Below, piece after piece: positions 3,746 to 46,655 of a DNA stretch of 51,552 nt. The notes below the pieces were generated by a model. It was not told the DNA's origin and made no database searches. It saw nothing but the letters and a program-made list of their open reading frames with translations. The position numbers and the translations under genes were made by a program. Position 1 is the first letter of the stretch. Each line of letters starts with the position of its first letter. Source of the stretch: a virus; IMG/VR virus record IMGVR_UViG_3300045911_000137, positions 1 to 51,552 of that record. One strand, 5' to 3'.

Positions 3746-4435
3746 TTACTTCATTGACTTTTTGCCACGGCACTTCCACTTCTTACGGCTAAGACGGTTT
3801 GGACTGTTTGGGTCATTTTTCCAATCACCCTTGATTCCAGCCGAGCGAGCGCAATAAGCATCACCGCGAGGTGTTCCTGGAGAGATTCTTACACCTTTTT
3901 GACCGTGAGATACACCATTCGTCTTCCACTTTTTACCCTTGGCAGGCTTACTTTCATCCAATAGATCTCCCATCAACGGCATACGAGATTCATCAGGTAC
4001 ACAATTTGGCACATCTCGGCCGTTTTTCTCTTTTTGACCTACCATCTTATACCCTTTCCAACATGGATCATTCTCGATGCGGTCATTTTCTTCAACTTGT
4101 GATAGCTTGGTATAGTATGCGGGATCTTCAGCAAGGTGAGCTAATGCAATAAGCGCAATTTTCTTTAGGTCGCCGTGGGTTACATCGTTGTGTTCAAGTT
4201 CAACATTGACTCCCATATGAAACTGATGGGGATCGACCGTGGTTTTATCAAGTTTAAACGCTTTAAATAGCTTATCAGATTTTTCTCGGGGAATAGTATC
4301 CGCACCAGAAGTCATTACGCCGGTTTCTGGAGCTACATCATCGTCATTACTAGAGGATTCTCTTCGTGGTATAGGTGCCATTTTGGAATAGCCGCACCCC
4401 TCATTGAGTAAATTACTGAGTAGGATTTGAGCCAC
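3746..4435 (-). CDS. DUF5661-like phage protein
   Basis: A 229-residue protein starting with GTG at 4435, supported by AGGAG seven bases upstream. The middle section, HQFHMGVNVELEHNDVTHGD through LAEDPAYYTKL, resembles the DUF5661 family, a small helical domain frequent in marine phage and bacterial proteins. It is followed by a Cys/Trp segment (DPCWKGYKMVGQK with NGRDVPNCVP) and a basic Cys-containing tail (GDAYCARSAGIKGDW, then RKKWKCRGKKS) of a type repeated in many phage proteins. Function is unknown. It overlaps its upstream neighbour by 23 bases. The basic tail could contact DNA, which is inference. Confidence 0.75.
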   Translation of the reverse strand: MAQILLSNLLNEGCGYSKMAPIPRRESSSNDDDVAPETGVMTSGADTIPREKSDKLFKAFKLDKTTVDPHQFHMGVNVELEHNDVTHGDLKKIALIALAHLAEDPAYYTKLSQVEENDRIENDPCWKGYKMVGQKEKNGRDVPNCVPDESRMPLMGDLLDESKPAKGKKWKTNGVSHGQKGVRISPGTPRGDAYCARSAGIKGDWKNDPNSPNRLSRKKWKCRGKKSMK

Positions 4436-7592: not shown

Positions 7593-8178
7593 TTGATATC
7601 TCCGTTTGTTCCTGTTCTTCTTGTTGTAATACGGCAAGACGGCCTTCACAGAACTTAATATCTGCTTGAATTTGTTCAAATAACTGAGTAAATTGTTTAA
7701 TGCTTGCTAATTCTTCCCATTCACCATTTTGAAAATGTACCTGTGGAGTTCTAAATGTGCGAATATAGTCTTTGCATTCTTCAATGTGATCTCGCAACCA
7801 CGCCATCTCATTTCTACGAACCATAGTACGTTCAAACTCTTCCCATGTACCATCCAATTTCATTTTGGTATGTTCTTCAATAGTGCAGTCATAGCATTGA
7901 TTATAAATACGATAGAACTTATCATCAAATCTATGACTCATTGATTTGTTACACTTTGGACACCACCACGGTGTCTTGGCGTCTTGTAGTTTCGTAATAG
8001 ACTGCTTGATGCCGTTCTTTACAGTCCACTCCTTGCCTTCAACATCAAACCACTTTTCGCCTTCTTTACGAGTGGGTTCAACCTCTGGACGCCATCCTAC
8101 AATTGGTCTATCAAATTTCTGAACTTTGCTGGCTAGCTTGTTGCGTAACGCTTCAACTCTTTGGTTTACATCGCTCAT
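7558..8178 (-). CDS. Zinc-ribbon-containing protein upstream of terminase genes
   Basis: A 206-residue hydrophilic protein. Residues about 72-105 contain WWCPKCNKSM and FYRIYNQCYDC, two CxxC pairs that should bind one zinc ion. The rest is helical and acidic with a Glu/Gln-rich tail. Related zinc-ribbon proteins of unknown function are common in T4-like marine phages. It starts at ATG 8178 overlapping the end of the nucleotidylyltransferase gene by 4 bases and overlaps the next gene by 35. The zinc ribbon suggests nucleic-acid or protein binding. No enzymatic motif is seen. Confidence 0.8.
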   Translation of the reverse strand: MSDVNQRVEALRNKLASKVQKFDRPIVGWRPEVEPTRKEGEKWFDVEGKEWTVKNGIKQSITKLQDAKTPWWCPKCNKSMSHRFDDKFYRIYNQCYDCTIEEHTKMKLDGTWEEFERTMVRRNEMAWLRDHIEECKDYIRTFRTPQVHFQNGEWEELASIKQFTQLFEQIQADIKFCEGRLAVLQQEEQEQTEISNGERVEDTNRG

Positions 8179-11100
8179 TTTTTGCTATTCCTTACAACCT
8201 TTTCGGCTGCCTTATATGCAGGGTGGGTTTTGTCGTATTTTAATGCTGTCTTGACCAAGATGTCATTATCGGTTTCTGGATTCCTGATCTTGGTATTGAG
8301 AATTTGTGGATCAAAACCAGCACGGACCTTTTTGTCTGATGATGGTGCGACAGACTTTTCCACAGCGTCTGCTGCATCGCCGGTATCTGGGATGCCTGCT
8401 GGTAGTTCCTTTTTCATCTTGGTAATTCCGGTCTTGAACTGATCCACTATTGCCGGCAACTTATCACGGAACTTTACATCGGGCTGTATGACTCGTTTTG
8501 CTAATTTTTCAAAGGTATCAATTTCATCAAACGATGAATTCTCACCAAACATAATCTTGGCAAGGAAATTAACATCATTTGATACCTTTTCCTTGGTCAC
8601 AGTTTCACGCTTACCCTTTGCGTTCTCTGTAAATGTCTCCTCATAAATACCATTACGGTAGTTGATAATGTAGCGTTTCTTGACGCCGGGGGTATCGGTA
8701 TCTTCAACCAAATTACTAAGTATATCCCTAATGAAGTTGTTTCTATATGTGGGACTCAGCGATGATTTGTCACCATTGGTCAAAAATCGCTTCATAAACG
8801 GTAAGTCGCCCATCATAAAGTCTAGTTGAACCACACCACCTTCACCAGTTGATTGACCGTCTGCGTCTACGGCACTTTGTTGTTTGCCCTGATCATCCAC
8901 TAGCGGCGCAGCAACACTAAACTGCTGGAAGCCGGGATTTACTCGAACTTCCATACCCATGCCGTCAAGGTAAGACTTTAGTTGAGTAAAGAACTCCTTC
9001 TTATCGGTTCCGCTAAATCCAATCGCTTGCTTGACCGCATCAAAATCCATTGCTACATCAAGATCATTCATAAGTGGCTTGTGTGTGCTACCAACCAATG
9101 CACGATCTAATTTTCCTAGACCGAGTTTATTGGCTACAGCGTCAGTCGTAGATTGTGCAAATTGATTGGGAATTTTGCTGTTGACTGATACGGCATTACC
9201 ACCTTCAAGAATCATCTTTGCTTCACTTCTAATTTTTTGTGCGGCTGCCTTGTAGGCGGGATGTGTCTTATCATACCCCAGTGCCGTCTTGACAAGAATG
9301 TCGTTGTCGGTTTCTGGATTTCTGATAGTGGTATTCAAAATTTGTGGATCAAAACCAGCACTGACTTTTTTCTCAGGCTGTTTAGGTGTGGTTGATTTTT
9401 CTGGAGCAGCCGGTTTACGCTTACCAAATTCACGCTGGCCGCCGGGCGAGCGTTCTGCTGAACGCATAGCCCGTTCAATATTCTTACGACCTACAGGATT
9501 TGCACTATGTAACTGCCATGCATCTCTGGCGGCCTGTGCATCTAGCTTTGCTTGTGCAAGTGCCGCCGTCTTTGCCTCTCGATCTGGCAACTTCTTGGCT
9601 TTAGCAGCCGCGTCAGCCTCGCCGCGTGCCTTCATCTCACCAATCTTTGAAGTTACTAGATTAAACACATCTGCGTCAAACTTACCATACATTGATGTAA
9701 ACATCTGTTTCTTATCTGCTGGTGATCGGTTTGGATCGCCTAGAACATTACGAACTGTGGTACCGGAAATATTTTGTCCATCCACATCAAGTTGAAATTC
9801 AGGTGCAATCATATAATATCCAACGTTTTTATAATCACCCTTAATCTGAGATGGGTCATCAGGTAATTCTTGATAATATTTTCCGCCTGTTAAACGTTGA
9901 GCATCTTTTTCACTAAGCGCGGTAATAAACGGAGTATCCTCTGGAAACTTATTTAGAATTTCTTCTGGTGCGTAAGGATTCTTGACTTGAACAATCTTGT
10001 CTTTTGGAATGCCAAACATAGACGACATAATAAATTGCTTTTCGTCAAAATTAAATGGTGACTTTTCATTATCGGTCTTGTTACTAGTTGCGATATACAC
10101 ATTTTCTGCACCATACTTGTCAACAAGACTCTTATATACCGAATAGTGACCGGCATGAAACGGTTGGAATCGGCCTGGGTAGACCACTATAGGCTTTGCG
10201 GCACCGCCTTCAAATAAAAAATCGGCGTCAACATTTTCAAGACGAAGGGTAACTTCACCTAAACCTGTAATGTTTAAATTTAGTCCCTCCGTGCGAGCAA
10301 TCTGCAACAATTCCTCGGTGAGTTGTTGTGACAATTCATTGGCAATATCTTCTTTCTTCATTCTTTGAGCACGTCTACGATACCGTTGATTAACCTCAGG
10401 ATCGTCAGTACGATCTTTACGGTCAATTCCTGCTGCCTTGAGAACTTGGTTTGCCATCTTGTATACAGGCTTCCACCGTGGATATTTGAGGGCTGATTGA
10501 ATTTTAATAGCACGGCCTGTTAACGGATTGCGGATCTTACGCTGCATGATGGGCGTATTTTTTGAACCAATAACTTCGGGTGTTTTTGTGTCTTGTCCTT
10601 TGGCGTCGGTCTTTCCAAAACCAGTTTCCTTGTTATCTTGGCCGGTGGCATCTGAAAATTCAAAGCCGTCAAGTTTCTTTGCACCCAACGACGCCTTTTT
10701 CTTCACAAGATCAAATATTTTACTGTTCTTCTTTGGAAACATCTTATTCAAAATACGATTTTTTACTTCGTCCTTGGTATGCTTGGAGCCAAGAATCTGA
10801 ATGAGTTGGGAATCGGAGAGATTTTGATTGCCAATTTTAATACGAACCTCGGGTTCGCTTAGGAAATAACCGGCTTGCCTGTATCCTCTGAGAGGACGGT
10901 CTTCAGCATAATGTTCAAAATATTCACTTTTTTCAAGTTGTTCTGCGGCGTCTTCATCTACTATTGCGACATATGCCGTGGTTTGTGCATCAAACCGCTC
11001 TAATAGCTCTTTGGGAATGTATGGATTTTCAACCTGTTGAATTTTATCTTTGGAAATACCAAACATTTCCGTGATAATTTCTTCCTTGTCTTTGAATGAC

Positions 11101-11333
11101 ATGGGTTCAGCCGGATCATCTCCGTCTTGTTCGCCGGTAATCAAATATACATTGTCTTTGCCAAATTTGTTTTGAAGACGTTGAAATACTTCATAGTGGC
11201 CTTGGTGAAATGGTTGAAATTCACCTGAATATGCGGCAATTATTCGCTTTTCCGAACGATCCTCTACAAGAGTTTGTTTTAATCCTACGGCTAAATAGGC
11301 TGCCAGACGATTTGCTTCAACAAGTAAGTCCAT
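8175..11333 (-). CDS. Multidomain protein: two nucleotidylyltransferase domains plus a pol-beta-type nucleotidyltransferase
   Basis: The start is placed at ATG 11333 (MDLLVEANRLAAY); the frame extends further only through a hairpin region from a TTG. The 1052-residue product has a first HxGH nucleotidylyltransferase domain (about 30-215, HQGH at 43-46), a second (about 380-570, GRFQPFHAGH ending at 396 and ISGTTVR at 522-528), and a third domain (about 735-900) with LVGST followed by DLDVAMDFD, matching the Gly-Ser plus DxD pattern of pol-beta-type nucleotidyltransferases. The first domain has LSDSQLI where ISGTTVR is expected, so it may be inactive. The linker motif IRNPxT occurs three times (about 267, 670 and 1010) followed by S/TALxY. 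HxGH domains transfer NMP to small phosphorylated substrates such as NMN, pantetheine phosphate or choline phosphate. The substrate here is unknown. Confidence 0.85.
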   Translation of the reverse strand: MDLLVEANRLAAYLAVGLKQTLVEDRSEKRIIAAYSGEFQPFHQGHYEVFQRLQNKFGKDNVYLITGEQDGDDPAEPMSFKDKEEIITEMFGISKDKIQQVENPYIPKELLERFDAQTTAYVAIVDEDAAEQLEKSEYFEHYAEDRPLRGYRQAGYFLSEPEVRIKIGNQNLSDSQLIQILGSKHTKDEVKNRILNKMFPKKNSKIFDLVKKKASLGAKKLDGFEFSDATGQDNKETGFGKTDAKGQDTKTPEVIGSKNTPIMQRKIRNPLTGRAIKIQSALKYPRWKPVYKMANQVLKAAGIDRKDRTDDPEVNQRYRRRAQRMKKEDIANELSQQLTEELLQIARTEGLNLNITGLGEVTLRLENVDADFLFEGGAAKPIVVYPGRFQPFHAGHYSVYKSLVDKYGAENVYIATSNKTDNEKSPFNFDEKQFIMSSMFGIPKDKIVQVKNPYAPEEILNKFPEDTPFITALSEKDAQRLTGGKYYQELPDDPSQIKGDYKNVGYYMIAPEFQLDVDGQNISGTTVRNVLGDPNRSPADKKQMFTSMYGKFDADVFNLVTSKIGEMKARGEADAAAKAKKLPDREAKTAALAQAKLDAQAARDAWQLHSANPVGRKNIERAMRSAERSPGGQREFGKRKPAAPEKSTTPKQPEKKVSAGFDPQILNTTIRNPETDNDILVKTALGYDKTHPAYKAAAQKIRSEAKMILEGGNAVSVNSKIPNQFAQSTTDAVANKLGLGKLDRALVGSTHKPLMNDLDVAMDFDAVKQAIGFSGTDKKEFFTQLKSYLDGMGMEVRVNPGFQQFSVAAPLVDDQGKQQSAVDADGQSTGEGGVVQLDFMMGDLPFMKRFLTNGDKSSLSPTYRNNFIRDILSNLVEDTDTPGVKKRYIINYRNGIYEETFTENAKGKRETVTKEKVSNDVNFLAKIMFGENSSFDEIDTFEKLAKRVIQPDVKFRDKLPAIVDQFKTGITKMKKELPAGIPDTGDAADAVEKSVAPSSDKKVRAGFDPQILNTKIRNPETDNDILVKTALKYDKTHPAYKAAEKVVRNSKK

Positions 11334-11354
11334 ACAAGACACCCAAAAAGAAAG

Positions 11355-11404
11355 AGGAACTACTAAAAATAAGTAGTTTCCCAATTCAGCATCAATGCTG
11401 AATT
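11355..11404 (-). terminator. Tandem hairpins, probable terminator
   Basis: Two adjacent inverted repeats lie between the glycosyltransferase gene and the multidomain nucleotidylyltransferase gene. The first to be transcribed is a perfect 10-bp stem (11383-11392 with 11395-11404, core ATTCAGCAT). The second pairs 11358-11364 with 11372-11378 (AACTACT with AGTAGTT) and is followed on the minus strand by the pyrimidine-rich run TCTTTCTTTTT. The second hairpin plus U-rich tract looks like an intrinsic terminator. The first may reinforce it or protect the 3' end of the upstream mRNA. Confidence 0.55.
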
Positions 11405-16198: not shown

Positions 16199-17302
16199 TT
16201 ATACTCTCAGTATTAGTGAAAGAGCCTCGCCTAGTTTGTTTGGTAAATCTGTAACGGTGCCGCCATGTGACCCCAATTGCACCGGTGAACTGCGGTTTGT
16301 GGTGTCGTCGAGACCTAATTGACCGAGGTCGTTACCTCCCCACGCCCATAGCGAACCGTCAGTTTTTTGAGCCAAAGTGTGAGAATAGCCACAAGAAACG
16401 TTTTTCCAATCGGTTAGTGTGCCTACTTGGACTGGAGAATTGCGGCTTGCGGTGTTACCGAGACCTAATTGACCGGAGGTATTATTTCCCCACGTCCAGA
16501 GTGTTCCATCAGTTTTGACTGCGGCGGAGTAATAAAGATTTCCGGCGGCAAGCGCCCAATTACTTAGTGTACCTACTTGCACCGGTGAACTGCGGTTTGT
16601 GGTGTCACCTAGACCTAATTCACTTAGTATATTACCTCCCCACGTCCAGAGTGTTCCATCGGTTTTGACTGCAACGGTGTGATAATAACCACCAGCAACC
16701 TGTTTCCAATTGGTTAGTGAACCTACTTGGACTGGTGAACTGCGGTTTGTGGTGTCGCCGAGACCTAGTTGACCGGAGGTATTATTTCCCCACGTCCAGA
16801 GTGTTCCATCGGTTTTGACTGCAACGGTGTGATAATAACCACCAGCAACCTGTTTCCAATCGGTTAGTGACCCTACTTGAACTGGAGAACTGCGGGTTGC
16901 GAGGTTACCAAGACCTAATTGACCGAAGTCATCCCACCCCCACGCCCAGAGTGTTCCATCGGTTTTGATTGCAAGGGTGTGAAAACCACCACAAGAAACG
17001 TTTTTCCAGTTGGTTAGTGAACCTACTTGGACTGGTGAACTGCGGTTTGTGAGGTCGTTGAGACCTAATTGACCGTAGTTATTGCGTCCCCATGCCCAGA
17101 GTGTTCCATTGGTTTTGACTGCAACGGTATGTGATTGACCGCAAGAAATGCTTTTCCAATCTGTTAGTGAACCTACTTGGACTGGAGAACTGCGGTCTGT
17201 GGTGTCATTGAGACCTAATTGACCGTAACCATTATATCCAAAACTGAAAATCTTGAAAGGAGGATTGTCAACGGATGCCCTAAAAAATCTATCTCGAATC
17301 AT
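16199..17302 (-). CDS. RCC1-repeat beta-propeller protein
   Basis: A 367-residue protein made almost wholly of six full RCC1 repeats of about 50 residues plus a partial seventh. Each has the form GQLGLxDxTNRSSPVQVG, then WK(Q/N)V, GxxHTxAxKTDGTLWxWG. The partial repeats at both ends would close a seven-bladed propeller. The repeats are also alike at DNA level (about 150-bp units), pointing to recent expansion or gene conversion. RCC1 propellers bind proteins or sugars. In phages they occur as tail-fibre or adhesin parts. Its position among tail-fibre-like genes supports a receptor-binding role. The start at ATG 17302 lies 4 bases from the preceding stop. Confidence 0.85.
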   Translation of the reverse strand: MIRDRFFRASVDNPPFKIFSFGYNGYGQLGLNDTTDRSSPVQVGSLTDWKSISCGQSHTVAVKTNGTLWAWGRNNYGQLGLNDLTNRSSPVQVGSLTNWKNVSCGGFHTLAIKTDGTLWAWGWDDFGQLGLGNLATRSSPVQVGSLTDWKQVAGGYYHTVAVKTDGTLWTWGNNTSGQLGLGDTTNRSSPVQVGSLTNWKQVAGGYYHTVAVKTDGTLWTWGGNILSELGLGDTTNRSSPVQVGTLSNWALAAGNLYYSAAVKTDGTLWTWGNNTSGQLGLGNTASRNSPVQVGTLTDWKNVSCGYSHTLAQKTDGSLWAWGGNDLGQLGLDDTTNRSSPVQLGSHGGTVTDLPNKLGEALSLILRV

Positions 17303-22400: not shown

Positions 22401-22679
22401 AGCAATAATGATGGTATCGGTTTTATCGGCCAGCGACTTCAAAAAGTCTGATGCTACTCGTACCATCTCTGGACTCATATCGGTCTTTGCGTGAACAATG
22501 TCACCTGCAACCACAATCACCGACTCTCGTAAATCTCTATTATCAAGCAAACCATAAAGTGTCTTAAACACTTGATCATATTCTTGATGTCTTTTAAACA
22601 GACGAATATGAATGTCTGCCAAGTGTAAGATATTTTTTACATTCTTCAGCTTAGTATTTACTATAAACTTTTCGCTCAT
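19494..22679 (-). CDS. gp47-gp46: gp47-gp46 fusion: Mre11-type nuclease joined to Rad50-type ATPase
   Basis: A 1061-residue single chain. Residues 1 to about 365 are an Mre11/SbcD/gp47 phosphodiesterase: HLADIHI (19-25), VVAGDIVH (56-63), IIAGNHD (91-97), LYHAP (163-167), and LLGDIHK (195-201), where the usual GHxH is GDIH. Residues about 380-1061 are a Rad50/SbcC/gp46 ATPase: Walker A SPNATGKTS (413-421), coiled coil, zinc hook CEYC (736-739), second coiled coil, signature LASGMEKF (971-978), Walker B FLVIDEGLGVLD (999-1010) and H-loop ISHLD. T4 makes gp47 and gp46 as separate proteins that process DNA ends for recombination-dependent replication. Here the order nuclease then ATPase equals the T4 gene order, so a read-through fusion is plausible. 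The frame is clean with no stop. It overlaps the primase gene by 4 bases. Confidence 0.95.
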   Translation of the reverse strand: MSEKFIVNTKLKNVKNILHLADIHIRLFKRHQEYDQVFKTLYGLLDNRDLRESVIVVAGDIVHAKTDMSPEMVRVASDFLKSLADKTDTIIIAGNHDLNLANPHRLDALTPIVDNLGHERLHYLRESGVYSFADVQFAVHSIIGDPSDWPSVDDMDNRPKIALYHAPVNKAQTDLGYPVTSKVTVETFNGYDMVLLGDIHKMQILQRKAPGIPEIAYPGSLIQQNHGESLQNHGFFVWDVSSSSIVEYVEVPNDYGYCTITIDSKTMPVTSHFPKNVRLRIFVDDVDASFIKKAISAIRKKHNVVELSVNKLVKKTARSSSVQKSAIDNITDISHQNGIIKKYIEEHYPNISTDVIQKVLDVNTKTNMLIGDEELPKNITWRPIHLKFDNLFSYGEGNEIKFDGMEGLYGVFSPNATGKTSAFDAMCFALYDKTPRAFKGSHIMNTRRNIFSCELEIDIENKRYVIERTGTRKKNGDVKVDVNFYRKDDDDKITSLNGEDRRNTNANIRSYVGTYEDFVLTTLSVQNQNSLFIDTGQSDRKELLSQFIGLTIFDRLFTIASDEIKEVAGALKTFKKDDFTQRLADLQRDIDVYEETCKKSETSITNIKNKVEGCITEIELLNSQKLPIDPELAKLKNISDIEQELQIIQNKLSQLSTKIVQVDHMIDQRNAVLLQLTQELSNLPDITSIESIIEKRNKSEKTLIALDGKRKTLLVDIQNKKEKLDKLKEHEYDPNCEYCVNNVFVKDAQKTASILERLHSDLESVLADIQNCSSFLETTQEAAKQYNQITLLKQQISDAQHKSSLARLEREQLRTDQANCDSELHRKMDLYKKYMANNTSIEKNRLLERAIEEQVQTRASYQRELKLLEDAYQKSYAELAVLKRQRDDLKSRIKEAEELEETYEAYETYLSVIGRDGLPYHLIATVIPELQTQVNNILSQIVEFTVALEVDGKNINGKIIYDDDRTWPLELASGMEKFISSLAIRVALMSVSNLPKSNFLVIDEGLGVLDSENLSSMFMMFNLLKTQFDFIILISHLDVVRDIADSLIEIKREDGFSYISV

Positions 22680-23584
22680 GAAAGTATCCGTAGCTTCACC
22701 AAGTCAGTGAAGGAAAGCAACTTAGCATCTTTGATAAGTTGTGTCATTTCCAAAAACCCGATCTCTGAAGGGTCTTTGTCGGTCAACGATACGATATATA
22801 CGTTTCGGCCGTTCTGCAAAAGCGTCTGTGCATGATCCAGCGTAGACTTAATAGCATCGGTGTCCAACGCAAGATATATATCACGAACATTATATTCAAT
22901 AATACGAGACATCAACCGCGTGGGTATTTGTTTGCCGAGTAGTGGAATGGCATTTCGTTTAATTGCCATTGCATCATACACACCTTCACATAGTACAATA
23001 GGATATTCCCAATTGATGCTATTCTCGAATATTACTGTATTTTTGCTTACTTGTGGATTCTTATACTTCATTCCATCTTCATAAAAACTACGACCAACAA
23101 AATAGTTGAGTTTGTTGTCTGCATCATATGAAGGAACAATAATACGATTTTGATATTGACCCTCAAAACAATACCCAATACGATATCGCAATATATCAGA
23201 TGCAGTCAACCCTCGATCTAATACATACTTTAAAGCATGCCGATAATCAATGCGAGCGAGTGGCTCATACAGAGGATGATATTCTTTCGGAAGAGATAAA
23301 TTCGTTACAACCGTATCATTATGAACTAACGGGATGTCTTCCTGTAAAATTCTTGACAGTTCGGCGATTTGTTCTTTGGAACAATCTAGTTTTCTAAACA
23401 GCGAAAGCAGTCTTCGACCCGAAGAATTACACACCCAACAATGCCAAGCACCTTTATTCAAGTTAATTGCTAACTTTGGATTATGATGGTGGCAAAAGGG
23501 GCACAACCAATAATATTCACTGTTGGCGTGCCTCTTGTGTGGTCCTAAAATATTGTCGAGTAGATAGATGATTTCATGTTGCAT
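22676..23584 (-). CDS. gp61: DNA primase, T4 gp61/DnaG type
   Basis: The start is placed at ATG 23584 (MQHEIIYLLDN), giving 302 residues. An earlier TTG is possible and neither has a strong ribosome binding site. A CHC2-type zinc finger is formed by CPFC (28-31) and CWVC (49-52). The catalytic Toprim part has RIIVPSYDADNKLNYFVGRS, then IVLCEGVYDAMAI with the conserved Glu, and IYLALDTDA with the DxD pair. The size is close to T4 gp61 (342). It would synthesise RNA primers for lagging-strand replication with the helicase gp41, which is not in this window. It lies directly upstream of the gp47-gp46 fusion, a replication/recombination pair. Confidence 0.9.
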   Translation of the reverse strand: MQHEIIYLLDNILGPHKRHANSEYYWLCPFCHHHNPKLAINLNKGAWHCWVCNSSGRRLLSLFRKLDCSKEQIAELSRILQEDIPLVHNDTVVTNLSLPKEYHPLYEPLARIDYRHALKYVLDRGLTASDILRYRIGYCFEGQYQNRIIVPSYDADNKLNYFVGRSFYEDGMKYKNPQVSKNTVIFENSINWEYPIVLCEGVYDAMAIKRNAIPLLGKQIPTRLMSRIIEYNVRDIYLALDTDAIKSTLDHAQTLLQNGRNVYIVSLTDKDPSEIGFLEMTQLIKDAKLLSFTDLVKLRILS

Positions 23585-23623
23585 ATGATACAAGATAACC
23601 CATTAGGTGAATTTAGTCAAGTA

Positions 23624-24100
23624 TCAACGACGTCGGCCACCGGCTAATCTGAATGCAACTTCTTTACTCAAATGTTCGGGCAATTTTTTTAGCCATTTTA
23701 GTAAAATCAAAAAGTCTTCTTCTGAAAGACTGCCTTTCATATTGTTGGCAAATCTGGAGATGACTTGAATATTTTCTCTGGTGGATGGTCCTCCCCTGGA
23801 AATGGGGATAATGTGGTCATATACAATGTTTTCAATAGTGAGCGACCGACCTGTATACCGACACTCGGTTCCGTAAGCTTCGTGGGTAAGTTCACGAATA
23901 TCATCAAGCGTAATAGTGCAATCTACTTCAGCTTCAGCGGAACGCTTTTTCATAGCGGTAAGGGCCGCCGAGGTCTTTCGCATTAACTTTTTAGCCTTGA
24001 CCTCTACATTTCGTTTATGAACAGTCTTGAGCTTCTCAATGAACTTAAGCTCCCAACCTGAGACTTTCTTTTTTCTGGTCGGCCCTTTGTGTTTTCGCAT
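23624..24100 (-). CDS. HNH endonuclease, likely free-standing homing type
   Basis: A 158-residue basic protein. The N-terminal 60 residues are Lys/Arg-rich. The HNH core spans about residues 78-130: CRYTGRSLTIENIVYDHIIP (catalytic DH), then ISRGGPSTRENIQVISRFAN with the structural Asn and NNMKGSLSEEDF, matching the HNH (ICP-like/5-methylcytosine endonuclease-like) pattern. The ATG at 24100 has AGGAA upstream. It lies between the glycosyltransferase gene and the primase gene, a usual place for phage homing endonucleases that spread by cutting homologous sites next to conserved genes. Alternatively it could be a nicking nuclease used in DNA packaging or degradation. Confidence 0.85.
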   Translation of the reverse strand: MRKHKGPTRKKKVSGWELKFIEKLKTVHKRNVEVKAKKLMRKTSAALTAMKKRSAEAEVDCTITLDDIRELTHEAYGTECRYTGRSLTIENIVYDHIIPISRGGPSTRENIQVISRFANNMKGSLSEEDFLILLKWLKKLPEHLSKEVAFRLAGGRRR

Positions 24101-24118: not shown

Positions 24119-24889
24119 CTACAAGATACAATTATAATAATTATTTCGTTCTCTTATGCTCACTCGCAATGGATCATCAAGTTGTCGAGACACTCGTTTT
24201 ATACTAAACAAAGAATCAACATTATACATACCATATACAGGTTCACCCCGTATAATTTGATCTACTATATCGATAGTAGCCGGTGATCCCCCAATCCATT
24301 CACACCATGTAATTGGCAATCCTTTATAGATGTGGTTCGGTGATAACATGGTGGGAAATATGGATTCTTCTTCACACGCCTGTAACATTAATTCAAAATC
24401 AAAGTTTAAATTTTTTAATGTTTGAATGAGATCACACATGATAGATTTTTTTAAAAATACGCCTTCTATTTGTGATGTGTATGGATGCAGTCCCGTCTGT
24501 GCCGATAATTCCATAACCCTACCATATTGGCTACCATATTGGTGACTACAATTATCGGTCTGCTGTATACCACAATCAAATTGTTTCATGTAATCATATG
24601 CGCCGGTTCTAAAAAATAATTCATTTGATGATAACATGCAAATATATTCAAATTCATAATCTTGTACAGTTAAAAAATTTGATACATGTACACCGAACAT
24701 TGAGTGTCCCCACTGAGTTGGATATCGATTGGGGTTAGTTATGGCATTATCAAATTCAAATTTGCCAATTTGTTCATTACAATGTAGTACAATCTCACAA
24801 TTTGGATTAAAATAATGAATATTTTTAATTTGATCTTCAACTACATCCGGACACTCATGTACGAGAATGGAAAAAATTATATTTTTCAT
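24119..24889 (-). CDS. Putative glycosyltransferase (GT14-like)
   Basis: A 256-residue protein starting MKNIIFSILVHECPDVVEDQ. The opening strand (IIFSILVHECPDVV, then NPNCEIVLHC), the middle segment YICMLSSNELFFRTGAYDYM, where an SxNE/D-type motif occupies the place of the metal site, and GVFLKKSIMCDL resemble core-2/GT14-like or related marine phage glycosyltransferases. A canonical DxD motif is absent, so activity is less certain than for the other three glycosyltransferase-like genes. No clear ribosome binding site is seen. It sits alone between gene remnants upstream and the HNH endonuclease downstream. Confidence 0.55.
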   Translation of the reverse strand: MKNIIFSILVHECPDVVEDQIKNIHYFNPNCEIVLHCNEQIGKFEFDNAITNPNRYPTQWGHSMFGVHVSNFLTVQDYEFEYICMLSSNELFFRTGAYDYMKQFDCGIQQTDNCSHQYGSQYGRVMELSAQTGLHPYTSQIEGVFLKKSIMCDLIQTLKNLNFDFELMLQACEEESIFPTMLSPNHIYKGLPITWCEWIGGSPATIDIVDQIIRGEPVYGMYNVDSLFSIKRVSRQLDDPLRVSIRERNNYYNCIL

Positions 24890-24907
24890 AGTTACATTGT
24901 CGGCAGA

Positions 24908-25156
24908 TTATTTTGTTTTAATGACTTTGATTGCTGCTTTTTTTGCAGGGTGATCATCATCATATTTTAGAGCACTTTTAACTAAAATGTCATTACCGGT
25001 TTCTGGATTCTCGATTTTCTTGTTTAGTACATCGGTGTCTGATTCCAAACTACCCGTAAGTCGTTCATATTCCTACGGAGAACCCTTTATTATTTTACGT
25101 AAATAGTCTAACACCGACATTTCTTTATTTTCAATTAATAATCTAAGTTTGATCAC
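24908..25156 (-). pseudogene. Broken small gene with in-frame TAG, carries IENPETGNDI module
   Basis: Reading on the minus strand from GTG 25156 (GGAG eight bases upstream), 27 codons (IKLRLLIENKEMSVLDYLRK...) end in TAG at 25075-25073. The same frame then continues for 54 codons (from EYERLTGSLESDTDV) to TAA at 24910-24908. The second part contains KKIENPETGNDILVKSALKY, clearly related to the IRNPETDNDILVKTAL motifs of the large protein at 8175-11333. The first part resembles the start of the adjacent remnant at 25227-25370. One nonsense change in an otherwise intact frame suggests a pseudogene. TAG is used as a normal stop elsewhere, so recoding is unlikely. Apart from these remnants, the 473 bases between 24900 and 25373 hold only the terminator noted below. 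Confidence 0.65.
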
Positions 25157-25226
25157 TGGATAACTCCGGAATCAACACGTCGTTCAAATAAAATATGAGA
25201 GTCTCCAATTATAACGGCCCAGACTC

Positions 25227-25370
25227 CTATAAATAAATGTAATATACAAAAACGGCCCCTCCGGCCAGAAAGACTTTTCCGGCGAAGGGGCTGTTGGCGA
25301 CTACTTTACGTAGAAAATCTAAGACATTCTCTTCTCTGTTTTCAAAGAGAAGTTTGCTTAGTAGAATCAT
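25227..25370 (-). pseudogene. Truncated nucleotidyltransferase-like N-terminus
   Basis: A 47-codon frame from ATG 25370 reads MILLSKLLFENREENVLDFL then RKVVANSPFAGKVFLAGGAV and ends a few hydrophobic residues later. The N-terminal 25 residues align with those of the neighbouring broken gene (LIENKEMSVLDYLRK). The ending FLAGGAV resembles the (V/A)GGxVRD opening motif of polynucleotide nucleotidyltransferases, after which the frame is lost. The C-terminal codons coincide with an intrinsic terminator hairpin. It could be a small expressed peptide, but the similarity to a domain start makes a truncated relic more likely. Confidence 0.45.
25248..25295 (-). terminator. Intrinsic terminator after the 25374-25700 gene
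   Basis: On the minus strand a GC-rich hairpin pairs AGCCCC...GCCGG with CCGG...GGGGCC (plus-strand arms 25279-25292 and 25254-25264) around a loop of about 14 bases, followed by GTTTTTG. It lies about 80 bases downstream of the last intact structural gene of the 25-37 kb block, so it probably ends that transcript. Confidence 0.7.
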
Positions 25371-25373
25371 TTA

Positions 25374-25700
25374 TTATCTGTTGCCCGTACCAATCTGCGT
25401 TTCACCTGGTGAGCGGCCCGGAACATAATATTTGTTCTTTGGGTTCCATTGATTTAATGGAATGCCCTCCTCGTGACGAATAAAACTTTCCGGGATCACC
25501 ATCTCGGCAAGCTCGGTGTCATAATAACCAAGAGCTTTTTCCGTCCATGAAGTCGGGTCACCCTTCTTTTGATTGTTCGTCCATCCCGCTTGGAAATCAC
25601 CCTGACGGTCAAAAAAGTCAACCGTGCGCTCCGGGATTTCACGAGCCTGCACAGGGCGAAGCTTCTTGGAACGGTTATAAATATCAACTAGCTGACTCAT
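25374..25700 (-). CDS. Small putative virion protein
   Basis: A 108-residue hydrophilic protein (MSQLVDIYNRSKKLRPVQAR...) with GWTNNQKKGDPTSWTEKALG and WNPKNKYYVPGRSPGE near the end. No family is recognised. ATG 25700 has GGAG eight bases upstream. It follows the two paralogous structural proteins with a 12-base gap and precedes a terminator, so it is probably the last gene of the structural transcript. Its charged, Pro/Gly-containing sequence suggests an extended linker or plug-like virion component, which is inference. Confidence 0.7.
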   Translation of the reverse strand: MSQLVDIYNRSKKLRPVQAREIPERTVDFFDRQGDFQAGWTNNQKKGDPTSWTEKALGYYDTELAEMVIPESFIRHEEGIPLNQWNPKNKYYVPGRSPGETQIGTGNR

Positions 25701-25712
25701 CAGCGTTCTCCA

Positions 25713-26603
25713 TTAGGCGTCAAATCGAACAATAACCGTCTGTTGCGTTGTCGGAACTCGGCGTATAGCGCGTGGAAATTTGGCTACTGCAACAAGTTCA
25801 AATTTATCATTGTATAAACCAACCGTCGTAATATACGGGCTAAGACTTCCACTAAAAAAAGTATCGGTGACAGATTCACCCTCTTGAGTTACGAAAGTTG
25901 GACCACCAGAAAAGCTACCACTGAGAACTTTAGAACGCATTGTAGGGTTGACCGAGAAATTGAATTCTCCGGGATCAGCCGTGCAAATAATCTGATGCTC
26001 ATAAATAGTATGCAATCCTTCAAATTGAACTTGTACTTGCGATCCGGTCGTTAAAAACAGTCCCTTATCCGTAACTAAACTGCCACTATAAGATCCAGTG
26101 AATTGTCCAACAACGGCAATGCCCAATGAATAGAATATGTTACCAACAACGCCTTGAATATTTTCTGAAGATACCAAGCGACCCATTCCATCGTCAAATA
26201 TACTTGCCGTAGAAACCGGACTGGTAATTCTAAATGTACCTGGATTTACTGTTTCACCGAATACTTGTTGCGGAATGTTTACAACATAAAATTGCGATTC
26301 AATCGGTTGAAATCCTTTGTTTTGTGGAGCCCTTAAAAACCTTACACTGGAACTTGAGTCCGAAGACCCGGTTTCATAGAATAAATTCTGCACCGACCGA
26401 TATAATGTTCTCCGATATATACCACTTGAGTTTTTCGCCTCTGATGCGGTATTGAATTCACCCCATGTAGACGGAGGAGCCACCGCAAGGTCAATAAACA
26501 CTTGCGGTGGATTACTGACGCTTAAAAATGTATGAGTGACATTCCAACCCTTACGAGCTCTGAATGGACGAATCAGGTAGTTATCAGACGTAATGGGCTT
26601 CAT
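25713..26603 (-). CDS. Structural protein, paralogue of the gene at 26676-27740
   Basis: A 296-residue beta-rich protein. The C-terminal section, FNFSVNPTMRSKV, SPYITTVGLYNDKFELVAVA and KFPRAI, parallels FNYSNNPTFFDE, DPQVYVTTIGMYNDQNELLA and AVAKLSRPT of the upstream gene, so the two are paralogues from a tandem duplication. The middle contains VSSENIQGVVGNIFYSLGIA and GSYSGSLVTDKGL. Such pairs occur in T4-like marine phages as tail or neck-associated virion proteins of unassigned role. It starts at ATG 26603 after a 72-base gap that contains a small hairpin. Confidence 0.75.
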   Translation of the reverse strand: MKPITSDNYLIRPFRARKGWNVTHTFLSVSNPPQVFIDLAVAPPSTWGEFNTASEAKNSSGIYRRTLYRSVQNLFYETGSSDSSSSVRFLRAPQNKGFQPIESQFYVVNIPQQVFGETVNPGTFRITSPVSTASIFDDGMGRLVSSENIQGVVGNIFYSLGIAVVGQFTGSYSGSLVTDKGLFLTTGSQVQVQFEGLHTIYEHQIICTADPGEFNFSVNPTMRSKVLSGSFSGGPTFVTQEGESVTDTFFSGSLSPYITTVGLYNDKFELVAVAKFPRAIRRVPTTQQTVIVRFDA

Positions 26604-26675: not shown

Positions 26676-27740
26676 TTACCAGTCGAGACGCACACGTACA
26701 AGCAGTTCGCGGTCAAAACTCTTTAGTGTCGGACGACTCAACTTTGCAACGGCCAAAAGTTCGTTTTGGTCATTATACATACCAATTGTTGTTACATACA
26801 CTTGTGGATCCTTGATAAATGTATTGAATGCCAAATTGCCATTTGTTTCATCAAAGAACGTTGGATTATTGCTATAGTTGAAGTCCTTATTACGAATTCT
26901 TACAAAATAATTTGTGCTTGAAATGGTTTCGGACGAACGGGCCTGGAAATCTCCACCCAAACGAATTGAATTATACAAGCCTACATGGTTATACTGGTGT
27001 ACGTTTGATGAACCCGTATTTGGTGCAAATGGTCGGCTACCTGAAATGATGAATGATCCTGATACGAAGCCTACCGTACCAGCAATAGCCGCTGGATTGA
27101 GCACGATAACACCGAGACTTGGATAGAACAATCCAAAATTTCCCCATACAGAAGTTGACGCAGCAATAGTAGATCCGCTCGGGCCGGTCAAATTACCGGA
27201 CACTACAGTAAATACATTACCAGCTTTACCAACTGTCGGGTCAAGTGTTTGACCACTATTATCAATAAAAAATCGCCTGCCGTTGGAACCCGATAGCGTC
27301 AAAAGCCAGTTACCTGGATCCATACGCTCTCTCAATCGAGCACGTGCAACATTGATAACATAAATTTGATCACTGTTTACACTACCAAATGTAAATTGTG
27401 TATCACTTGGGTCAAGTAACAAGTTACGATATTGTGAATACACGGCGCGTGTGCTCAATGTAGCAATATCACTGTCAGTCAATGTTGGAGCACCACCACC
27501 AGTACGATGACCATAAGCTACGGAAAATTGTACTTCGGGAATTGGTACTGTTGAAGGAATATTGGGATTTGATTGATACACATCCCAATAATATTGTCCG
27601 CTCAACGAGGATGATGCCTGAGCAGAAGAAGTAAAGAACGATGAAAGGCTACCTGTATCACCACTCCACAATCCCACTGTGACTTCAGTAGGATTGCCCG
27701 GTACTATATCGTCCTGTTCAAAACGCTTATAGACACTCAT
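26676..27740 (-). CDS. Structural protein, paralogue of the gene at 25713-26603
   Basis: A 354-residue beta-rich protein starting MSVYKRFEQDDIVPGNPTEV. It contains LSTRAVYSQYRNLLLDPSD, IYVINVARARLRERMDPGNW (a Arg-rich segment) and the C-terminal VTTIGMYNDQNELLAVAKLS block shared with its paralogue. AGGAG precedes ATG 27740 by about 14 bases with intervening AT-rich sequence. Its place after the MAYLNNSTITVD protein is typical of clusters of tail/neck virion proteins in marine T4-like phages. The exact T4 counterpart cannot be assigned from sequence alone. Confidence 0.75.
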   Translation of the reverse strand: MSVYKRFEQDDIVPGNPTEVTVGLWSGDTGSLSSFFTSSAQASSSLSGQYYWDVYQSNPNIPSTVPIPEVQFSVAYGHRTGGGAPTLTDSDIATLSTRAVYSQYRNLLLDPSDTQFTFGSVNSDQIYVINVARARLRERMDPGNWLLTLSGSNGRRFFIDNSGQTLDPTVGKAGNVFTVVSGNLTGPSGSTIAASTSVWGNFGLFYPSLGVIVLNPAAIAGTVGFVSGSFIISGSRPFAPNTGSSNVHQYNHVGLYNSIRLGGDFQARSSETISSTNYFVRIRNKDFNYSNNPTFFDETNGNLAFNTFIKDPQVYVTTIGMYNDQNELLAVAKLSRPTLKSFDRELLVRVRLDW

Positions 27741-44472: not shown

Positions 44473-45129
44473 TTATAATCCTCTCAAATCATAGTGAGCA
44501 AATCGCTTCATATATTCAGAAACATGCACACCATTACCATCATGAGTTCTGAAATTATATTGTTCTGGATAGAAAAACGCCAGCACTCCGCCCGGCCCCA
44601 CCAGGTGTGCGCCAGCTAAAATACCGGCTTTTGTGACATATACACCATTATATTCTACACCATGATACTTCTTGATAAGACCTCGTAACGACCGAGCATT
44701 GTCTCGCATCCATATCAACATAACGGAATCTTGCAATTCTGGATTTTCTAAAAATTCTTCCTTAGATGCTGTAACTCCCATCAACCGGAGAGTTCTCGGA
44801 TGAAACTGATACAATCCCAAATATCCGCTCTTACTGATCGTATTATACGATCCCAGTCCTTCAATCTTACCCATGTGTGCAAGAAATGATCGTATATCAC
44901 CGCGAATTTTTGGTCGTTTTACAACAACCTTTTCGGTAGTTTGCGGAAACGAAGATAGATCCGTCTTCCATAGTGGCGGAATCGCGTCGATTCTCAGTGA
45001 CGGAACAGTATCGATTCCCGTAGACCATGTCCACCACATAGATTCTCTATGGGAATATTTGTAAGTTGCAATTGTGGCCAATCCAAAAATTGATAACAAG
45101 CAACACAGACGAACGAATTGATTTTTCAT
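44473..45129 (-). CDS. Lysozyme-like transglycosylase with N-terminal signal anchor
   Basis: A 218-residue protein. An N-terminal hydrophobic segment (FVRLCCLLSIFGLATIATY, residues 5-24) serves as signal or membrane anchor. The catalytic-type domain has HMGKIEGLGSYNTISKSGYL then GLYQFHPRTLRLMG, matching the E...S.xGxLGLYQF pattern of lytic transglycosylases with the likely catalytic Glu in KIEG. Towards the end come AGILAGAHLVGPGGVLAFF and DGNGVHVSEYMKRF. It would cleave peptidoglycan at host lysis or entry. Its ATG overlaps the stop of the IMP dehydrogenase C-half gene (ATGA). Confidence 0.75.
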   Translation of the reverse strand: MKNQFVRLCCLLSIFGLATIATYKYSHRESMWWTWSTGIDTVPSLRIDAIPPLWKTDLSSFPQTTEKVVVKRPKIRGDIRSFLAHMGKIEGLGSYNTISKSGYLGLYQFHPRTLRLMGVTASKEEFLENPELQDSVMLIWMRDNARSLRGLIKKYHGVEYNGVYVTKAGILAGAHLVGPGGVLAFFYPEQYNFRTHDGNGVHVSEYMKRFAHYDLRGL

Positions 45130-45728
45130 AGTAGTAAATGTGGTTTGGCTTCGGTAATACCAGCATTGGTAACAGTAACATATCGAGGCGCATAAGATTT
45201 CAACGATTCCGCACCTGCGTATGAACAGGCCGAACGAACTCCGTCTAACAAATCTTGAATGACAAAGTTTGCCCCACCCTTGAAAGGAATCATCGTAGAT
45301 TCGCCTTCAACATTACGTTCTGCCTGACCGTGGACCGACTTGGTTTCAAGTGAAGCGGCACCACGATACCGCTTGAATAGTCCTCTGGAAGTCTCTACAA
45401 TTTTACCTGGTGATTCTTTTGTTCCTGCGAGTAGAGATCCCAACATAACAGACTTTGCACCCACGGCTAGTGCTTTGGCGATGTCCCCACTAGTACGAAT
45501 ACCACCATCAGCAATGATGGGTATTCCTGAAGACTTGGCATGTTCTACACATTCTAAAATTGCAGTGACGTTTGGAACGCCAAATCCCGTCTTGACGCGG
45601 GTGGTGCATAAAGAATTATGTACGACTATACCTTCAATGTTATATGAGTGATTGTCCTCAACCGTCAAGTCGTATACCTTTCCAACATAATGCTTCCTTT
45701 CGATGGATGTTATTTTAACCAGCTTCAT
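45126..45728 (-). CDS. guaB: IMP dehydrogenase C-terminal half with split-intein C fragment
   Basis: A 200-residue protein. Residues 1-38 are an intein C-fragment: KHYVGKVYDLTVEDNHSYNI (block F) and GIVVHN (block G, ending in Asn38). Ser39 is the first extein residue. The C-extein begins SLCTTRVKTGFGVPNVTAI, holding the catalytic Cys of IMP dehydrogenase, followed by IIADGGIRTSGDIAKALAVG, the phosphate-binding ADGGIR loop and SVMLGSLLAG. The flap residues appear as KRYRGAASLE, with the Arg-Tyr pair typical of IMPDH rather than GMP reductase. The matching N half lies upstream at 45819-46655. Joined, the exteins give about 341 residues without CBS domains. AGAGG lies before ATG 45728. Confidence 0.93.
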   Translation of the reverse strand: MKLVKITSIERKHYVGKVYDLTVEDNHSYNIEGIVVHNSLCTTRVKTGFGVPNVTAILECVEHAKSSGIPIIADGGIRTSGDIAKALAVGAKSVMLGSLLAGTKESPGKIVETSRGLFKRYRGAASLETKSVHGQAERNVEGESTMIPFKGGANFVIQDLLDGVRSACSYAGAESLKSYAPRYVTVTNAGITEAKPHLLL

Positions 45729-45818: not shown

Positions 45819-46655
45819 TTACAATTCTATAAGAAGAAATTCGTCTGTTAGTTCTTCGGCTGAAGTCCATCGTGCGTATTGATGAATATTTTCGTCGGTT
45901 ACTAGATGTTCGTGGGACTTGTGAACCACATAAAATTCGTGGTTTTTAGTGCATTCAATCCCATTGATAATCATAATTTCTTCGTCACGGTCATATTCAA
46001 ATTTATGAATAACTTCTTTTGGTTCACCTGTATGTGTATATACCACATCACCTATTTGAACATCTACAATGGGTTTCATTCCACTACGAGTTCCTACCCG
46101 CATTTCGGGAGTAAAACACCCCCCACCGATTCCCACCCGAAGTGCGTCTGCACCCCAATCAATCAGATGTATAGTAGCTTCGCCAGTAACAATATTTCCT
46201 GCAATAACATCTACATTTAAATTGGCTTTGATGTGACCAATGGCATCCTTTACAAACTTGTGGTGCCCATGTGCCACATCTATTAGTATAACATTACATC
46301 CGTTTTTTGTCAACTCCTGCGCTCGTTCCAGATAATCTCCGTTGGCTCCAACCGCTGCGGCAACGGGAACATCAGTTAATCCATTGAATGTAGCATACTG
46401 ATTTACCTTAGATACATGACTGGCCTGTTCTTGAATACTCATGAATCGGTGAATGACTCCGACTCCACCACAACTCATCATAGCAATCGCCATATCAGAC
46501 GCACATACGGTGTCCATAGGAGAGGCCACCAGTGGAATACCAAGATAATAGTTTTTTGTAAACTGGGTGGATAAGTCGATGCGTCCGCGAGATTCAATAT
46601 TACTGTAAGACGGTACCAACTGAATATCATCGTATGTCAAGGCATGAGTAACCAT
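45819..46655 (-). CDS. guaB: IMP dehydrogenase N-terminal half with split-intein N fragment
   Basis: A 278-residue protein. Residues 1-179 are the N half of an IMP dehydrogenase TIM barrel: ALTYDDIQLVPSYSNI, PLVASPMDTVCASDMAIAMM, VAAAVGANGDYLERAQELT, ILIDVAHGHHKFVKDAIGHI, VIAGNIVTGEA and RVGIGGG, the start of the catalytic loop. Cys180 (codon 46116-46118) is the intein's first residue. The intein N-fragment has block A (CFTPEMRVGTRSGMKPIVD) and block B (IECTKNHEFYVV with TxxH-like TKNH). The frame ends 99 residues into the intein. Trans-splicing with the C fragment would join GIGGG to SLCTTR. This matches the IMPDH split-intein arrangement described for fractured genes in environmental phage DNA. 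Confidence 0.93.
   Translation of the reverse strand: MVTHALTYDDIQLVPSYSNIESRGRIDLSTQFTKNYYLGIPLVASPMDTVCASDMAIAMMSCGGVGVIHRFMSIQEQASHVSKVNQYATFNGLTDVPVAAAVGANGDYLERAQELTKNGCNVILIDVAHGHHKFVKDAIGHIKANLNVDVIAGNIVTGEATIHLIDWGADALRVGIGGGCFTPEMRVGTRSGMKPIVDVQIGDVVYTHTGEPKEVIHKFEYDRDEEIMIINGIECTKNHEFYVVHKSHEHLVTDENIHQYARWTSAEELTDEFLLIEL

Follow-up and report, generated by a model that had tools for sequence, protein, structure and literature searches.

Two short frames in this phage DNA appear to be non-functional remnants of nucleotidyltransferase (NTase) genes. The window, by which we mean the whole 51,552-base stretch that we analysed (record IMGVR_UViG_3300045911_000137), comes from a T4-related tailed phage whose terminase shares about 50% identity with its counterparts in Flavobacterium phage immuto and Microcystis phage Mel-JY01. 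In our reading, to which we give a probability of about 0.8, the parent enzymes mostly bore an N-terminal leader and probably travelled in the phage head, the remnants lie at a nuclease hot spot, and a hairpin at the end of the first remnant is probably a terminator.

Both frames lie on the minus strand and share the start LL[FI]EN[RK]E..VLD[FY]LRK, as an earlier note on this DNA had described. The note placed them between tail genes, but their place is the end of the tail genes, ahead of an HNH endonuclease gene and a primase gene. The features of the locus are as follows.

25374..25700, minus strand: 108-aa gene directly upstream of ORF1; its protein is identical in a sister phage.
25227..25370, minus strand: ORF1, which reads as the truncated 5' end of a CCA-adding/poly(A)-polymerase-type NTase gene, with FLAGGAV and then FVYYIYL.
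25341..25370, minus strand: ORF1 leader, MILLSKLLFE, capsid-targeting-like, with a predicted prohead-protease cut after the E.
25251..25295, minus strand: terminator-like hairpin over the codons of NSPFAGKV and FLAGGAV, with a T run at 25248-25252.
25073..25156, minus strand: 5' part of ORF2, with a GTG start; leader and NTase N-terminal helix, up to GSP and the TAG.
25073..25075, minus strand: in-frame TAG of ORF2, at residue 28.
24908..25072, minus strand: 3' part of ORF2, frame unchanged past the TAG.
24911..25030, minus strand: ORF2 C-terminal NPETGNDILVK module, 67% identical over 39 residues to the C termini of two intact NTases (L047 and L048).
24127..25250, no strand: segment absent from the 98%-identical sister; 33.0% G+C.
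24119..24889, minus strand: 256-aa gene, without family assignment; the ORF1 of the sister ends at this gene's stop codon as well.
23624..24100, minus strand: HNH endonuclease gene with an endonuclease VII-like profile (PF01844 above cut-off; phrog_1035, 7.1e-14).
22676..23593, minus strand: primase-like gene, which in relatives borders the hot spot on its right.

A pattern search of viral contigs for relatives of the 256-aa gene gave zero matches. Two tail genes, at 25713-26603 and 26676-27740 (minus strand), are homologous to each other, and Mel-JY01 has several further copies nearby. An RCC1-like repeat protein (PF00415, seven stretches), unusual for a phage tail region, is encoded at 16199-17302 (minus strand).

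ORF1 starts at ATG 25370, stops at 25227-25229 and translates as MILLSKLLFENREENVLDFLRKVVANSPFAGKVFLAGGAVFVYYIYL. The earlier note saw in it a nucleotidyltransferase cut at its opening motif, and a profile search and two alignments support this. We built an NTase profile from the N termini of 13 intact phage CCA-adding/poly(A)-polymerase-type NTases (L027-L029 and L035 left out, L014 and L048 added), with ORF1 and ORF2 excluded. ORF1 ranked first among 1439 frames of the window (E = 8.5e-15) and ORF2 ranked second (4.8e-5), followed by a third frame at 0.67. In the sister (492 frames), the ORF1 frame again came first (2.3e-11); the second match there (0.087) was the frame next to it in that hairpin, which is what a shift by 1 nt would produce. 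With the L024 NTase as the query, ORF1 was the only match in the window (residues 1-41, 58% identity, E = 2.7e-7), ORF2 not being reported; the query also matched the ORF1 counterpart in genome G001 and gave zero matches in genome G002. When 2.9 million viral contigs were scanned with a degenerate pattern based on PFAGKVFLAGGAV, one contig, L013, was returned; it encodes a 647-aa protein with the stretch EASRDEAALDFLKVMVKNGPFAGKVYLAGGAVRD, and blastp aligned ORF1 to this NTase at 20 of 30 residues. Because L013 was found by a pattern from the motif of ORF1, the motif part of the ORF1 score is not independent; the helix stretch ahead of the motif, and ORF2, are evidence independent of that pattern. 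ORF1 and ORF2 also resemble each other, with an ungapped score of 75 that none of 5000 shuffles reached and a two-sequence blastp value of 4e-10 over 27 residues.

ORF1 contains the N-terminal helix and the glycine-rich motif hGG of the head domain. It stops seven codons past the motif, and the catalytic acidic residues, the RNA-binding region and the HD region are absent. Therefore, ORF1 is a remnant and not a member of the family. Judged by these alignments, it is a 5' fragment that would have lost everything after the glycine-rich motif, catalytic acidic residues included. General searches gave little for such short peptides. Against 50,697 phage records, tblastn returned matches at E 7-10 only for ORF1 and no match for read-through ORF2; Pfam and PHROGs gave nothing significant for either short peptide; and a degenerate search with LLFEN.EENVLDFL found the sister only.

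Intact relatives indicate what the parents may have looked like. A search with the L013 protein gave 15 NTase loci, one being L013's own contig. We classed these by eye, and L026-L029 are near-identical. The leader is fused directly to the NTase in 8 of the 15, as in L024 (MISLKELLMEGAKENAALDYLQHLVRNGPFKGRVYLAGGAVRD); in 6 the NTase is part of a longer protein and directly follows an L-x-E-like site; and one (L035) has neither. PF01743, PF12627 and HD were above cut-off in all four intact copies scanned (L013, L024, L036 and L048), and the poly(A)-polymerase head, RNA-binding and HD domains of the L013 protein are those of the CCA-adding/poly(A)-polymerase family. At L013 6839-10782 (minus strand), the NTase gene stands beside one for a 667-aa protein in which NUDIX, ART-PolyVal and phage lysozyme domains are joined. 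By eye, the N terminus that precedes the fused NTase in L031 and L033 looks similar to that of the 667-aa protein.

The leader was then counted across the window, where two further genes come into play.

3746..4435, minus strand: DUF5661 protein of 229 aa, whose leader, MAQILLSNLLNEG, is of the ORF1/ORF2 type.
8175..11384, minus strand: 1069-aa protein (1052 residues from ATG 11333), with a leader, cytidylyltransferase-like domains and three NPET modules.
8190-8315, 9228-9362 and 10437-10601, minus strand: the NPET modules of the 1069-aa protein.

An LLxE-type site within residues 2-15 was found on 6 of 49 N termini in the window (0.7 expected), compared with 16 of 1095 internal stretches. The 49 N termini are those of our own gene list, which includes ORF1 and ORF2 and enters the 1069-aa protein from ATG 11333. 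ORF1 and ORF2 are among the six; besides them the count is 4 of 47, and two of these four, the 256-aa gene and a 1447-aa tail protein, look like chance. Across 13 NTase loci (L027, L029 and L022, the last being L013's contig, left out), a slightly wider pattern applied to mechanically chosen frames found the site on 30 of 142 N termini versus 2.6 expected. Eight of these 30 are NTases or NTase-containing proteins, and some of the 22 others are homologous between loci.

The T4 cleavage site has the form L/I-x-E. In T4, a ten-residue N-terminal leader puts internal proteins into the head and the prohead protease trims short N-terminal peptides from internal proteins, according to passages of PMC9958956, and a passage of PMC5694885 states that prohead proteases cut after glutamate. 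A T4-type S77 prohead protease is present in 5 of 11 records, including G002, which is the window's 98% relative; a search of the window and G001, both fragments, gave no match to it. The shared start of ORF1 and ORF2 is partly leader and is best read as a putative T4-style capsid-targeting peptide. More generally, the leader M(I)xLxxLLxE, followed by N, G or S, is probably a capsid-targeting peptide trimmed after its glutamate by the S77 prohead protease.

The S77 protease gene of G002 (L043, 12517-13401) is itself interrupted by a mini-intein-like segment of 154 residues that starts with C and ends with GN before S. Intein-like sequence also occurs in the window, where an IMP dehydrogenase is split in two genes (45126-45728 and 45819-46655, minus strand) with intein-like N and C halves (Hint/Intein_splicing profiles). 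We take this to be a fractured gene carrying a split intein, an arrangement known from IMPDH-1.

The sister phage, IMGVR_UViG_3300044998_000260, is 98.6% and 98.0% identical to the window in the two flanks. It lacks 24127-25250, a segment that contains ORF2 and almost the whole 256-aa gene and whose G+C content is lower than that of all 253 sampled windows of 1124 bp. The first 98 nt of ORF1 are identical in the two phages. After that the sister's ORF1 is frameshifted and reads on to the stop codon that ends the window's 256-aa gene, so that ORF1 has 47 aa in the window and 42 aa in the sister, with different C termini. In our alignment of the 3' arm of the hairpin, to which there is an alternative with more gaps, the two differ by four substitutions synonymous in the NTase frame, a 1-nt gap and one differing codon; the sister has one more NTase-fitting codon (CGT) than the window, and its arm reads FLAEGLF in the ORF1 frame. 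These hairpin differences (25251-25295 versus L003 6403-6450) lie in the 3' arm and make the pairing stronger, and quasi-palindrome correction is a possible cause.

ORF1 and ORF2 might instead be live small genes for short internal head peptides, made of leader and helix (ORF1) or of leader and tag (ORF2 before the TAG). The ORF2 GTG does have a GGAG seven bases upstream, and small proteins with this type of leader do exist in relatives, immuto gp76 among them. The 98 identical bases of ORF1 also seem to favour this; however, at 98.6% flank identity they are not evidence of selection. ORF1 ends inside the NTase motif, its homology runs into an enzyme motif that it cannot use, its length and C terminus differ in the sister, and ORF2 carries an in-frame TAG. 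We consider live genes unlikely and continue to read the two frames as remnants.

ORF2 starts at GTG 25156, and past the TAG its frame stays open for 54 codons, to a TAA at 24908-24910. Ahead of the TAG are the leader and helix, VLDYLRKIIKGSP, similar to NTases with KIQGTEW or IIKGTEW; the NTase link of this part reaches E = 4.8e-5 but covers about 24 aligned residues. Past the TAG, 14 residues with no recognised match lead to the NPETGNDILVK module. L047 and L048 are near-identical intact 521-aa NTases that end in this same module. Residues 22-479 of L048 have no counterpart in ORF2; about 450 codons of the middle are missing. Therefore, with a helix at its start and an L047/L048-like module at its end, ORF2 is both ends of a gene without the middle. 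A MAFFT placement of the ORF2 tail on the NTase C terminus was left unused, since the aligned relatives have no module. The suggestion that ORF2 is a second decayed copy, running through the TAG into the NPETGNDI module, thus holds. The L047/L048 NTases have the module and no leader, and the leader-bearing NTases with printed C termini have no module, so we found no intact gene with both ends of ORF2. In the course of decay ORF2 would have kept its ends and lost the roughly 450 middle codons, and the TAG may mark the junction or lie near it.

The TAG ends 2 of the 47 genes listed in the window, one of them the neighbouring gene at 24119-24889. It is therefore a normal, if rare, stop in this phage, and we rejected a recoded TAG for this reason. 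A sequencing or assembly error at the TAG is as improbable in our view as live genes. It would turn ORF2 into an intact 82-aa protein with leader and tag, the frame is indeed open for 54 codons past the TAG, and the sister lacks the region and so offers no second copy as a check. However, read-through ORF2 has no NTase body between its ends, and it would still be an internally deleted gene.

A recent tandem duplication as the source of the two remnants is not supported, and we rejected it because they agree at 15 of 27 amino acids and at 40 of 75 nucleotides. In roughly the same alignment columns, ORF1 and the NTase of another phage agree at 14 of 28 residues. The earlier note had proposed a gene family that expanded, recombined and decayed. 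Decay and recombination stand, the latter through the 98% sister, and recent tandem expansion lacks support.

The hairpin at the end of ORF1 has a folding energy of -28.2 to -28.8 kcal/mol (-28.8 for 25240-25296) and ranks second in stability among separate 57-nt places of the window. Only 1 of 5000 synonymous versions of ORF1 was as stable. The homologous codons of 14 intact NTases (the 15 loci with L027 dropped) averaged -9.8 with a minimum of -17.6, compared with -28.2 for ORF1. Since synonymous versions and homologues are far weaker, the hairpin is not a by-product of the protein sequence, and that origin was rejected. A terminator consensus scan lists the hairpin, but such sites are no more frequent there than expected (6 in the region versus 7.3 in shuffles), and other highly stable hairpins of the window include ones within genes. 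The sister's hairpin is stronger (-34.0) and has no T run. The claim that a terminator was left in place is borne out as far as a terminator-like hairpin, stronger than its codons require, stands at the end of ORF1. This hairpin is probably the transcription terminator of the tail genes, and the end of ORF1 would have turned into it.

That the shared start is just a capsid-targeting leader on two unrelated small genes, with FLAGGAV a by-product of the hairpin, is very improbable: the leader does occur on unrelated proteins and the hairpin arms do encode the motif, which in the sister's ORF1 frame becomes FLAEGLF, but the stretch ahead of the motif is also similar (a fixed-register score reached in 2e-5 of 200,000 shuffles), the ORF2 profile match arises without any hairpin, and a 1-nt shift of this motif accounts for what the sister reads, four of the remaining differences there being synonymous in the NTase frame.

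The remnants lie at a variable place. A fixed order of tail gene, variable stretch and primase is found in immuto, Mel-JY01, LR756508, L061 and L062. The last two are those that span the place among four loci from a primase alignment over genome contigs; the other two, L063 and L064, have only about 830 bases ahead of the primase and were not judged. All five relatives examined carry a mobile-nuclease gene there. It is a SegE_GIY-YIG gene in immuto, Mel-JY01, L061 and L062 (E = 1.6e-25 to 3.5e-31) and an OrfB_IS605/TnpB-type gene in LR756508. The window and the sister carry the HNH gene, which adjoins the variable segment in both. Three intact NTases used as queries found no intact version at the same place in the five relatives; the two weak partial matches that they gave (E = 0.028 and 0.80) lie outside the variable stretch. 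PMC10448857 describes nuclease genes at the borders of genetic exchange between phages. With nuclease genes at this place in the relatives, the window and the sister, a nuclease-linked hot spot is the likely setting. Turnover at this place may have removed or added the 1.1 kb by which the sister phages differ, and the nucleases may have had a part in it. Immuto gp100 (NC_055915.1, 100836-101273), which belongs to these SegE-type genes and matches SegE_GIY-YIG at 3.1e-26, is annotated as NAD synthetase, likely a misannotation.

The NPETGNDI module extends well beyond the NTases. With read-through ORF2 as the query, three further copies were found in the window (E = 2.2e-14, 5.1e-12 and 1.6e-6), all within the 1069-aa protein. 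The earlier note had counted this protein, in its 1052-residue form, in the same gene family. This did not hold, and an intact member of the same enzyme family was rejected as a reading, because its domains are cytidylyltransferase-like; only the leader type and the module are in common. Five module copies, used as queries, returned 15 loci, among them once more the contig of L005. The module stands at the end of, or between the domains of, otherwise unrelated proteins. These are CCA-type NTases (L047, L048); cytidylyltransferase-like multi-domain proteins, by Pfam in the window, L005/L050, L049 and L060 and by similarity to the window protein in L046 and L051; SAM-lyase-like proteins (L052 and L053 by Pfam; L055 is alike and was not scanned); and an acetyltransferase with DUF5661 (L057). 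L058 and L059 have an FDDTL motif and look HAD phosphatase-like by eye, with no Pfam match over cut-off. In L054 and L056 the module is near the N terminus of a protein of about 735 aa, which had no Pfam match in L054, the one scanned. An HMM was built from 11 module copies; its seeds included ORF2, L048 and the window copies, so their scores in it are not independent. A tblastn search with the L048 tag gave a match at E 7 only. The SAM-lyase-like proteins of L052, L053 and L055, with their C-terminal module, are possible head-borne anti-restriction enzymes.

L005, a second 98% relative, carries a segment of about 1.3 kb after LFEGGAA in its cargo-like protein that the window lacks. This segment has a KxDG-type motif (EKLDGQN), which we take to be RNA-ligase-like, and no Pfam match. 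Conversely, L005 is without a segment that comes later in the window's cargo-like protein and looks NTase-like by eye. Thus, whole enzyme segments differ between window 8175-11384 and L005 877-4116, and the border at LFEGGAA resembles a protease site.

The remnants themselves are ordinary gene decay, and the interest lies in the tag-bearing enzyme set behind them. The parent NTases, intact in other phages, would mostly have had an N-terminal leader, and some, in place of it, an NPETGNDI tag at the C terminus. They were probably carried in the head and injected, and may have mended tRNA 3' ends early in infection. A broader proposal, which we put forward tentatively and at somewhat less than even odds, is that environmental T4-like phages carry a modular head cargo, marked by an LLxE leader and/or an NPETGNDI tag, cut apart by the prohead protease and injected as an early RNA-repair and anti-defence kit; its modules would turn over among near-identical phages, and ORF1 and ORF2 would be dead cassettes. 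The enzymes that might belong to it, with the same reserve, are CCA-type NTase, NMN-adenylyltransferase-like, RNA-ligase-like, SAM-lyase-like and acetyltransferase proteins. Equally conjectural is the layout, in which the tag would be C-terminal or a linker and the leader interchangeable and N-terminal. If these tags do send enzymes into the head, the injected cargo of uncultured phages could be predicted from sequence alone, and a CCA-type enzyme that enters together with the DNA could, from the first minute, counter defences that damage tRNA. Such a cargo gene may be seen in the sister pair in a snapshot of its loss, with its stump becoming a strong hairpin.

Several known systems resemble parts of this picture. 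A limited search of the literature on capsid targeting, polyvalent proteins and CCA enzymes gave no description of leader-bearing CCA enzymes or of the NPETGNDI tag. Section 21 of PMC7824862 treats the CCA enzymes of jumbo phages as RNA repair and does not mention packaging, and a passage of PMC7291057 reports a short phage NTase-like protein that is toxic to E. coli. Phage CCA-adding/tRNA NTases (PF01743, PF12627 and HD; phrog_2244) are the closest known enzymes, ORF1 aligning to the first 41 residues of the L024 copy. In contrast to them, ORF1 and ORF2 are ends only, with no catalytic acidic residues, and 8 of the 15 intact loci found here start with a capsid-targeting-like leader. Polyvalent proteins are likewise multi-domain and thought to be packaged and injected, and the L013 neighbour has NUDIX, ART-PolyVal and lysozyme domains; the passages of PMC5512222 that describe them mention Pol-beta NTases, but neither a leader-bearing CCA-type enzyme nor an NPETGNDI tag. 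At hot spots of free-standing homing endonucleases (SegE and others; PMC10448857), the picture is similar in that the variable segment here adjoins an HNH gene; the likeness is one of gene position. Finally, T4 IPII and IPIII have an N-terminal leader of about ten residues that ends in glutamate (passages of PMC9958956 and PMC5694885), as here, whereas the leader described here, known from its sequence, is found on enzymes and on fused multi-enzyme proteins.
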